From Pseudochrobactrum saccharolyticum (GTDB taxonomy: Bacteria; Pseudomonadota; Alphaproteobacteria; Rhizobiales; Rhizobiaceae), in the NCBI RefSeq assembly GCF_008801715.1, contig NZ_VZPG01000001.1:62001-126000 (forward strand): a stretch of DNA of 64,000 nucleotides, written 5' to 3'. The notes beneath the pieces are model-generated. The model searched no databases and had not been told where the DNA came from. It saw nothing but the letters and a program-made list of their open reading frames with translations. This document shows positions 40,123-64,000 of this stretch, in pieces (the stretch's first letter is position 1; every line of letters starts with the position of its first letter). A program made the translations under genes and the position numbers.

Positions 40123-40728
40123 TCAGGCGGTTGCAGAACGGGGTGCCTGTTGCGGCGCAGTGATGCTGCGCACACCAAGGCACAACAGCGTAAAATAGCT
40201 CAGGCTTTCCAGTGCTTCTTCCAGAAACTCGTTAAAGGCAAGCCCGTGCATTTTCTCAAAAACCTCGCCGAGAGCGATGAGTGCCGCTGCCAGATAAAAA
40301 GGCCATGCTTTACGGCTGAAAACAAAGGTCAATACAGGGCGCACATAATCTGAATGGCGGAAAACATAAATAGCGGCGAAAGCGATGACGATAATTGCCT
40401 CATGCCAGCGGAATGCATGGGATTTAATGTAATTGCTCACCGGTCCTGTCGGCTCGATTTCAAATTCACGGAAGAAGAAAATCCACATCAGTACGGACAT
40501 ACCGATTGCAAACATTCGCGCAGGCCCCTCACTGCGCAGGCCGCCGATGAAAAACGCGATTGCGGCAAGACCGAGATAAACCAGTTGCAAATTCTCGAGC
40601 AATCCGGCCTCTCCCATTTCGACGACAAGATTGTCAAAATCCGTCACGAAGAAAAAGAACAGAACATTTAATAAAAGCAGTACCAGCATTGCACTGATGA
40701 AACTGCGCGAAGCATAAGATGGAAACAC
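40123..40728 (-). CDS. Polytopic membrane protein (ENxQ...RE family, copy 1)
   Basis: Inner-membrane protein of 201 residues with about six hydrophobic segments and no recognised domain. Charged residues conserved with the partial protein at 63635 are embedded in or near membrane helices: ENLQ in LLENLQLVYLGL, and REFEIEP after WIFFF. HAFRWHEAIIV and GEVFEKMHG add further polar residues in helices, which suggests a buried catalytic or binding site. It is transcribed toward holC, 128 bp away, and starts 17 bp after a weak GAAAC region. The function is unknown. Confidence 0.7.
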   Translation of the reverse strand: MFPSYASRSFISAMLVLLLLNVLFFFFVTDFDNLVVEMGEAGLLENLQLVYLGLAAIAFFIGGLRSEGPARMFAIGMSVLMWIFFFREFEIEPTGPVSNYIKSHAFRWHEAIIVIAFAAIYVFRHSDYVRPVLTFVFSRKAWPFYLAAALIALGEVFEKMHGLAFNEFLEEALESLSYFTLLCLGVRSITAPQQAPRSATA

Positions 40729-62142: not shown

Positions 62143-63432
62143 ATGAGTAGCATGCTGCATTCGGTTCTGAACAAGCTGATCTCAAGCGGCGATCTTAAAG
62201 TACAATTTGCCGATGGCACGACACACACTTACGGCAACGGCACTGCGCCGCGTGTCACGCTTGCCTTTCACAATAAAGCGGCGGAAAGAGCGATCGCTCT
62301 TGATCCGGAACTGAAGCTTGGCGAATGTTTCATGGACGGGGATATCAGTTTTCCGGAAGGCGATATTTACAGCTTTCTCCGGCTGGTCTTTGAGAATACC
62401 GGCCCTACGGCGGCAAAAGAGCCGTGGATGCGTATCCTAACCAGATTACGCAAAATTTTCAGACCATTACAGCAAATGAACACGCTGGCACGCTCTTCCA
62501 GAAATGTGCAACGGCACTATGATCTGAGTGGCGAACTGTATGATCTGTTTCTTGATCCCGACAAGCAATATTCCTGCGCCTATTTTGAAACGCCGCAGAC
62601 CAGCCTTGCGGAAGCACAACTGGCAAAGAAGCGGCATATTGCGGCCAAGCTGCAAATCAAACCCGAGGATAAATTACTGGATATCGGCTGCGGCTGGGGC
62701 GGATTAGGTCTGTATTTTGCAGAATTTCTTGATGCTGATGTTACCGGTGTAACCCTGTCTCAGGAGCAGTTCCAGATTGCCAATCAACGGGCAAAAGCGC
62801 GCGGGCTGAATCAACAGGCACAGTTTTTGTTGCAGGATTATCGCGAGTTGAACCAGCAATTCGACCGGATCAGCTCTGTCGGCATGTTTGAACATGTAGG
62901 AGTTACCCATTATGCCGAATTTTTTCAGCAGGTTGCGCGGCTGTTAAAACCGGATGGTTCCATGCTGCTGCACTCTATCGGCCGCAGTGACGAGCCTTCC
63001 GTCACCAATCCGTTCATCCGTAAATATATTTTCCCCGGCGGCTATATCCCCTCCCTCTCGGAAGTCCTGCCGCATATTGAAAATGCGGGACTGATTATAA
63101 CGGATATCGAAATTCTCCGCCTGCATTATGCGGAAACGCTCAAAGCATGGCGTGAAGCTTTCATGGCGAACCGCGATAAAGCAAAAGCCATTTATGATGA
63201 GCGTTTTTGCCGGATGTGGGAGTTTTATCTGGCAGGCTCGGAATCCGCCTTCCGCTGGCAGAATATGATGGTGTTTCAGATACAGCTTGCACACAGACAG
63301 GACGCTGTGCCGCTAACCCGTAATTATATTGAGCAAGAGGAAAAGCGGCTTAAGCGACTGGAAATGCGCAAATTCAAAGCCTGTAATGACAGTAGCAGCG
63401 AGAAAGCCAGCCCGAAACATCTGGTTTATTAA
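62143..63432 (+). CDS. Cyclopropane-fatty-acyl-phospholipid synthase family methyltransferase
   Basis: Membrane-associated SAM-dependent enzyme of 429 residues that adds a methylene bridge to unsaturated acyl chains of phospholipids, altering membrane stability. The N-terminal lipid-binding domain has RVTLAFHNKAAERAIALDPE and LGECFMDGDISFPEGDIYSF. The catalytic domain starts near residue 120 with VQRHYDLSGELYDLFLDPD and YSCAYFET. The SAM site is LDIGCGWGG (179-187), then SVGMFEHVG and KYIFPGGYIPSLSEV, and a C-terminal EFYLAGSESAFRWQNMMVFQ. All family blocks are intact. The ATG follows GGAGGA. It is monocistronic after the rplI terminator. Confidence 0.93.
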   Translation: MSSMLHSVLNKLISSGDLKVQFADGTTHTYGNGTAPRVTLAFHNKAAERAIALDPELKLGECFMDGDISFPEGDIYSFLRLVFENTGPTAAKEPWMRILTRLRKIFRPLQQMNTLARSSRNVQRHYDLSGELYDLFLDPDKQYSCAYFETPQTSLAEAQLAKKRHIAAKLQIKPEDKLLDIGCGWGGLGLYFAEFLDADVTGVTLSQEQFQIANQRAKARGLNQQAQFLLQDYRELNQQFDRISSVGMFEHVGVTHYAEFFQQVARLLKPDGSMLLHSIGRSDEPSVTNPFIRKYIFPGGYIPSLSEVLPHIENAGLIITDIEILRLHYAETLKAWREAFMANRDKAKAIYDERFCRMWEFYLAGSESAFRWQNMMVFQIQLAHRQDAVPLTRNYIEQEEKRLKRLEMRKFKACNDSSSEKASPKHLVY

Positions 63433-63634: not shown

Positions 63635-64000
63635 ATGCCCAGCGTGCAAACCAAGCTGCACTCACGCCTGAATAAAACAACCCTGCTTGTCTTATCAGCA
63701 GGATTACTGGTTCTTCTCGCTTCCTATCCGCTGGCATTCATTCTCCCTGCATGGACATCGTGGGAAAACGGCCCTGTTGAAAATGCTCAGGCAATATTGC
63801 TATTTCTGGGTATGATACAGGCACTGATTTTTCAAAAATCCGGCAGTTCAGACTGGAAATGGTTCTGGCGCGGTGCGGCATTGATCTGGTTTATCTGCGC
63901 AGTTCGGGAATTGAGCTGGGGTGCGGTTTTCCTTGAGCCAATCAGCCTTTCCGAGCTTGGCCCTTTCTTCTCATCACGCCAGCTCTGGTACAAACCAGCC
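63635..64000 (+). CDS. Polytopic membrane protein (ENxQ...RE family, copy 2), cut by window end
   Basis: The first 122 codons of a membrane protein, starting at ATG 63635 after AAGGGAT. Three hydrophobic segments are visible (LLVLSAGLLVLLASYPLAFI, AILLFLGMIQALIF and ALIWFICAV). ENAQ before the second segment and REL after the third, followed by FLEPISL, align with ENLQ, REF and IEPTGP in the protein at 40123-40728. The two share spacing and helix placement, so they appear to be distant paralogues. The C-terminus lies outside the window and no function is known to me. Confidence 0.7.
   Translation, partial: MPSVQTKLHSRLNKTTLLVLSAGLLVLLASYPLAFILPAWTSWENGPVENAQAILLFLGMIQALIFQKSGSSDWKWFWRGAALIWFICAVRELSWGAVFLEPISLSELGPFFSSRQLWYKPA

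Follow-up and report, generated by a model that had tools for sequence, protein, structure and literature searches.

We read two genes in a 64,000-nucleotide stretch of the Pseudochrobactrum saccharolyticum genome (the window), here called A and B, as ancient paralogues in an uncatalogued family of small inner-membrane proteins, whose members would work as stand-alone enzymes at the periplasmic leaflet, with a lipid or isoprenoid of the envelope as substrate; we give this reading as a whole a probability of about 0.4. The family format is a six-helix protein of ∼200 amino acids, and both A and B have its membership features: ExxxxE, an RE pair ∼42 residues on, and EExxE opening the last helix (Table 1).

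Table 1. Coordinates of genes A and B, their conserved residues, and D-type relatives (positions refer to the window unless a locus is named; 37 is the number of diverse members aligned)
Feature	Position	Strand	Remarks
Gene A	40123..40728	minus	201 aa; GTG start; read as six membrane helices
A motif 1, E40-x-G-x-x-E45-N46-x-Q48	40585..40611	minus	start of helix 2; E40 and E45 in 37/37
A motif 2, R87-E88	40465..40470	minus	end of helix 3; 37/37
A residue E158	40255..40257	minus	end of helix 5; E in 50/54 rows of alignment A5
A motif 3, E170-E171-x-x-E174 (then Y178)	40207..40221	minus	start of helix 6; 37/37
Gene B	63635..64000	plus	first 122 of 222 aa within the window; 304 further bases beyond its end
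B motif 1, E44-N-G-x-x-E49-N50-x-Q52	63764..63790	plus	5/5 genus rows
B motif 2, R91-E92-L-S-W95-G96	63905..63922	plus	end of helix 3; G96 in 52/52, W95 in 49/52
D-type member	L052:946-2010
D-type member	L135:1156-2286
D-type member	L137:1444-2571

The pair was first picked out by a sequence-only reading, which placed both genes correctly without giving the strand of A and proposed retrieving the whole of B; the complete gene, from the same genome (L002:2636-3304), encodes 222 amino acids. A is present in all seven genomes of the genus and B in six, the genome lacking B being 61% complete. Close B proteins occur in named Pseudochrobactrum records (L068, L096, and L118); L013 is 95% identical to B, and L102 is the same protein as L013 over 219 amino acids. 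In one genome (G005, the sequence of L068), B is split by a frameshift while A is intact. This is Pseudochrobactrum asaccharolyticum DSM 25619 (L068:4918-5597), where B differs from that of a sister species by one gap in 681 aligned bases and is either broken or mis-sequenced. Within the genus, dN/dS was 0.037 to 0.092 for A (15 pairs from six genomes, first 190 codons, G002 omitted) and 0.084 to 0.134 for B (10 pairs from five genomes, first 216 codons, G002 and G005 omitted), with several pairs near saturation at synonymous sites; purifying selection acts on both genes. Single-protein searches of 18 genomes from other genera of the same bacterial family found neither A nor B; a family profile used later did match a member elsewhere in that bacterial family, in genome G867.

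The sequence-only reading had described A and B as distant paralogues of low overall identity, and so they appear. They are 21% identical in the multiple alignment, and BLASTP found nothing significant between them. In the profile-profile comparison that had been proposed as a check, an A-family profile (nine rows, without B) matched a B-family profile (52 rows, without A) at a probability of 97.6% and an E value of 3.3e-12 across 147 columns, in which every motif is aligned; two reversed controls gave 1.6 and 2.0, and five column-shuffled controls gave at most 1.1. The match was weaker when the B profile held only five genus-level rows (probability 74.4, E = 2.7e-5); the same five-row profile in the opposite direction, under a 50% match-column rule, gave 91.1 (E = 1e-6), with a reversed control of 0.1. 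A profile match this far above its controls shows that the homology is real, and it spans most of the protein. Convergence or chance likeness between unrelated helical proteins, for which the silence of BLASTP might be cited, is very improbable given the controlled profile match, the existence of sequences intermediate between A and B (for example, L020 and L128), and the identical order of motifs and helices in the two structural models.

An alignment of 37 diverse members has exactly seven invariant columns: E40, E45, R87, E88, E170, E171, and E174 (A numbering). How these sequences were collected matters for reading such counts. The 52 B-type rows (alignment A4, comprising 52 of 55 nonredundant ORFs; two truncated ORFs and L105 were omitted) were fetched with the DNA pattern WENGx[hydrophobic]ENxQ and then passed through the filter RE[LVTM][SANG], so that strongly kept B columns are unselected only outside those strings; beyond the genus, B motif 1 is invariant by selection, and R91 and E92 were filtered for. 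The unselected, strongly kept B columns include W95, G96, G109, P110, P157, E175, E193, E194, E197, and Y201, with E193, E194, E197, and Y201 invariant (52/52) and E175 kept in 48 of 52. In the 37-member alignment, 17 rows came from protein or profile searches outside the DNA-pattern fetch, and the same seven columns are invariant in them: motif 1 keeps E40 in 17, G42 in 15, E45 in 17, and Q48 in 16, and R87-E88, neither pattern-fetched nor filtered for in these rows, is kept in 17 of 17. Motif 3 is present in all 52 B-type rows, where it was unselected. Several A-like rows have D or a different residue at the position of E158.

These counts bear on the signature first proposed for the pair, which was ENxQ before one helix and RE plus EP after the next, at matching spacing. 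The sequences are as described (E45-N46-L-Q48 and R87-E88 in A, E49-N50-A-Q52 and R91-E92 in B), and the distance from ENxQ to RE is 42 residues in both; EP does not keep its spacing, since the step from R to E is 5 residues in A and 10 in B. Nor does EP belong to the signature: its glutamate falls below 80% conservation in the 52 B-type rows, of which 47 retain the proline. The suggestion that conserved charged residues lie at the membrane borders holds for E and R, which fall at helix ends on one side; the further step to a catalytic or transport site is a proposal. N and Q are kept less strictly than first supposed: G42 and Q48 are conserved at 90% or more among the 37 members, while N46 lies below. 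Two shared features had been overlooked, namely the extra glutamate five residues before that of ENxQ and the EExxE(xxxY) opening the last helix; EExxE is the strongest motif of the family.

In a tree of 43 rows, the B-types form one clade of 22 rows (support 100/99), while A groups with a Phyllobacterium protein (98/95) elsewhere in the tree, among other alphaproteobacterial rows; many branches are long, rooting was by midpoint, and 17 of the 40 forks stay open, leaving the finer order unsure. Their positions in separate deep clades mark A and B as old paralogues rather than the product of a recent duplication. B of the window's genus pairs with a Variovorax protein (85/66), which hints at transfer from Betaproteobacteria.

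We found no fixed gene partner at the 52 B-type and 20 A/C-type loci surveyed, which suggests that the protein is complete in itself. Neighbors were read for 52 of 67 focal B-type ORFs, 15 having been lost by the simple gene caller, and shared neighbor sets were mostly confined to one genus. Across families, ORFs that by eye resemble RND pumps, membrane fusion proteins, and UspA lie within four genes of five, four, and four loci, respectively; we rejected these as partners because their offsets vary and such genes are common. At the 20 A/C-type loci, six ORF families are each common to two loci, at differing offsets. A itself lies between ORFs read by eye as pepA and holC, near lptF, a gene order that we take to be standard in this group and do not count as evidence. 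Directly upstream of B, an ORF read by eye as a cyclopropane fatty acid synthase (62143-63432) is present at five of five genus loci; downstream of B, on the opposite strand, lies a 295-aa ORF without a name (L002:3427-4314).

Beyond the genus, the family is old and patchy. The A profile matched 10 of 249 genomes of the order, the source genome included. A class-wide profile search returned 3 of 385 genomes: the source genome, a true member (L020), and L021, which on reading is not a family member. A phylum-wide search gave rows in 19 of 398 genomes; all those at an E value of 3.9e-7 or better are, on reading, family or D-type proteins (the latter in L047), and among the weaker rows the only true one is the D-type protein of L052, the others being cytochrome-b-like, transporter-like, PAP2-like, or GGDEF-like by eye, or without a plausible gene. 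The DNA pattern WENGx[hydrophobic]ENxQ, run against genomes of 84,980 species, found 76 matches in 74 stretches, of which 68 are family members (67 retained by the filter, and L128, which it had failed to retain); the other 8 are not members. Viral contigs scanned with B itself and with the A profile yielded no relatives, and the WENG pattern picked out seven viral stretches with no family member among them. In plasmid records, A matched once, in Phyllobacterium; neither the B relative L102 nor a C-type relative matched any. The C-type relatives, retrieved with the same family profile, are three proteins from Orbus, Pseudaminobacter, and Rhodobacter genomes that keep ExxxxE, RE, and EExxE. In Orbus hercynius (L177:4317-4967), an ORF with a DEGxxE motif adjoins the C-type gene, perhaps making a tandem C-type pair besides its B-type gene. 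Tandem B-type pairs occur in two Massilia species (L079:6303-7659 and L084:6429-7827). Copy number was counted in 13 genomes, three of which proved to be chance pattern matches without a family match; 7 of the 10 holders carry two copies, three of them preselected as two-copy, leaving 4 of 7 unselected holders.

By title, the 68 pattern-matched members belong to Pseudomonadota, Gastranaerophilales, and Bacillota. Where looked up, the Bacillota holders are of the class Negativicutes (Sporomusaceae, Selenomonadaceae, Phascolarctobacterium, Propionispira, and Pectinatus), and Negativicutes have two membranes. The exceptions by title are L072, labeled only Bacillota, and L074, labeled Bacillus subtilis. 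The B protein in the latter record (JAHREI010000002.1, strain SK6B4) is that of G001, which belongs to the window's genus; the neighbors there match those of Pseudochrobactrum loci and the genome of the record has LpxC; its species label looks wrong. LpxC, a marker of lipid A, was present in all seven holder genomes tested, L072 and L074 included, and in neither of two nonholders. In a Bacillota sample, the family was found in 2 of 199 genomes (L155 and L156) and LpxC in 39, both holders being among the 39; L155 equals the Pectinatus protein of L064 over 213 aligned residues. A third row from this sample (L157) is another membrane protein, not of the family. The chance of both holders having LpxC, given 39 of 199, is ∼4%, so the link to two membranes rests mainly on taxon names, which are clumped. 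Among phyla with one-membrane members, the sample covered Bacillota; named holders are so far only among two-membrane bacteria.

AlphaFold2 gave a model of A with a mean pLDDT of 81.1 and a pTM of 0.76 from a 54-row alignment of mainly B-type sequences, whose dominance may make the model lean towards B; for L102, the close B relative, the values were 92.6 and 0.89. Both models read as six membrane helices with short helices before helix 2 and helix 5, and in both the conserved motifs share one side of the membrane: helices 2 and 6 begin with them, and helices 3 and 5 end with them. Averaged over the 52 B-type rows, with loop limits set by us, the other side carries 1.60 (N terminus), 2.52, 3.73, and 2.31 (C terminus) lysines plus arginines per loop, and the motif side 0.19, 0.92, and 0.44. 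These loop charges place the conserved charges outside, and suggest that the motif side is periplasmic, with both termini predicted to be cytoplasmic. The spacing in helix 2 (E45, Q48, and L52) and in helix 6 (E170, E174, and Y178) fits a single helix face for each set, and we infer that the charged residues meet as one site at the outer membrane interface.

On these features we base the proposed function. The six glutamates and the arginine, usually joined by an acid at the end of helix 5, would gather at the outer interface of the membrane and form a periplasm-facing site for metal binding or acid-base chemistry; such a site is suggested by six invariant Glu and one Arg with no invariant His, Lys, Ser, or Cys. 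The protein would then act alone, its substrate being a lipid or isoprenoid of the envelope. The libraries and PDB searched yielded neither a fold nor a family of enzymes that would point to a reaction, and the buried carboxylates could serve proton movement or structure alone. The patchy presence of the family and the frame-broken B in one species argue against an essential role.

A less probable proposal is that the proteins are transporters or sensors coupled to a divalent cation or protons, with the carboxylates binding the ion where the bundle opens to the periplasm. The density of acidic residues around a single arginine at one membrane face would fit, as would the Massilia tandem duplicates and the two copies in four of seven unselected holders. 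However, no invariant residue lies mid-membrane or on the cytoplasmic side, where a pathway is expected, and no transporter family recurs among the library matches: BPD_transp_2 (E = 3.2e-5) and the weak NCBIfam rows involve one member each. Slightly less likely still, the proteins could be noncatalytic, structural or regulatory, with salt bridges between the charges keeping the bundle together or a partner in place. The want of a partner gene or cofactor motif, the patchy presence, and the tandem copies all agree with such a role; seven strict charges amid ∼20% identity between distant clades, on the other hand, would seem to exceed what bundle stability usually needs. We thus rank an enzyme acting on an envelope lipid first, a cation transporter or sensor second, and a structural role third.

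Of low probability is an intramembrane glutamic protease like CPBP (Rce1) or PrsW, which would use the EExxE pair. A di-glutamate opening a membrane helix is common to CPBP and PrsW. The motifs of CPBP/Rce1 are EExxxR, FxxxH, and HxxxN, all of them absent here: the third position after EE is E, there is no invariant His, and the 18 Pfam families matched by the 52 B-type members include none of this kind. At the level of sequence, a protease of this kind appears mostly refuted.

Taken further, the envelope-lipid enzyme would stand for a widespread and old family at the periplasmic leaflet of two-membrane bacteria, with a new kind of site made of six or seven carboxylates and an arginine in a rhodopsin-like bundle, and with at least the clades A, B, and C; this extended version we hold to be doubtful. 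If the clade reading is true, one genome can hold more than one of A, B, and C, which may then differ in the envelope lipid they act on, and if the outer-membrane link holds, the family may mark an envelope step common to Proteobacteria and two-membrane Firmicutes. Because the residues to mutate are defined exactly and the membrane side is likely known, it offers a ready target for genetics, and its culturable hosts include Pelosinus, Delftia, Acidovorax, and relatives of Rhodobacter.

That the family had no name, as first supposed, agrees with our catalogue searches: it is without an entry in Pfam, NCBIfam, PHROGs, or PADLOC. A, the B fragment, L102, and another 26 proteins, either members or D-type relatives, fell below the curated Pfam cutoffs, as did A, the B fragment, L102, and 16 others in NCBIfam. 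For the 52 B-type members, the cutoff comparison covers the first and tallies cover the other 51: 18 Pfam families matched at an E value of 0.1, each in at most 3 of 52 (the BPD_transp_2 match is the best single row), and 13 NCBIfam families matched one member each (best E = 0.0021). With nine proteins (six family and three D-type), PHROGs gave one row that was not significant (E = 0.073), and PADLOC none at an E value of 0.1. Searches of the literature by family motif strings found no mention, and absence from print rests on such searches. As for known folds, Foldseek found nothing at an E value of 0.001 or better for either model against the PDB, nor for the B relative against viral models, and profile searches of PDB sequences gave two, one, and zero rows, all at an E value of 0.19 or worse.

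Among known systems, the best structural alignments are with microbial rhodopsins, which give the top VIA-align rows for both the A model (Z = 7.0, rmsd 4.3, 153 aligned) and the B-relative model (Z = 8.2, rmsd 4.2, 166 aligned). These Z values lie below the level that is informative for helical bundles with this tool, and possibly reflect just a common arrangement; absence from the VIA-align list does not exclude a family. The best Foldseek rhodopsin row has an E value of 0.57 (B relative), and our proteins read as having six membrane helices, not seven. Microbial rhodopsins also carry a retinal-binding lysine in the last helix, where our family has Glu and Tyr as its columns conserved at 80% and no Lys. 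For A, Foldseek ranks myomaker first (E = 0.55, probability 0.57; VIA Z = 6.2), and adiponectin receptor 1 reaches a VIA Z of 4.6 against the A model. Both are weak, and both are absent from the best 50 rows for the better B model. We take the two to represent the CREST superfamily, whose seven-helix fold gave weak rows only in Foldseek and VIA-align; CREST proteins have zinc-binding His residues, a feature unmatched among 37 members with no invariant His.

In its manner of working, the nearest comparison for the proposed enzyme may be UppP/BacA, the undecaprenyl-pyrophosphate phosphatase, an integral membrane enzyme whose periplasmic face has an Arg and a pair of glutamates. The likeness is in glutamates and Arg at that face and is one of working only: UppP/BacA has a Ser-containing signature, which is absent among the conserved columns of our family, and the Pfam rows of the 52 members include no family of that kind. 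Relatives by sequence outside the family are the D-type proteins, found via the family profile or from such a match, which are membrane proteins read as 355 to 377 amino acids long that carry EE[IL]SWFQ among other motifs and have no Pfam match. They have a helix 2-3 module in common with the B family (67 columns at an hhalign probability of 96.0 and an E value of 4.5e-9, against 0.3 and 0.4 for reversed controls) and match the A family more weakly (41.7, E = 2.7e-4); they differ in being longer, in having Glu in place of the Arg of RE, and in their other conserved motifs. In one genome (G759), two D-type copies adjoin each other on opposite strands. Small polytopic envelope proteins are well known as a kind; what A and B add to them is a family that has had no place in the catalogues used here.
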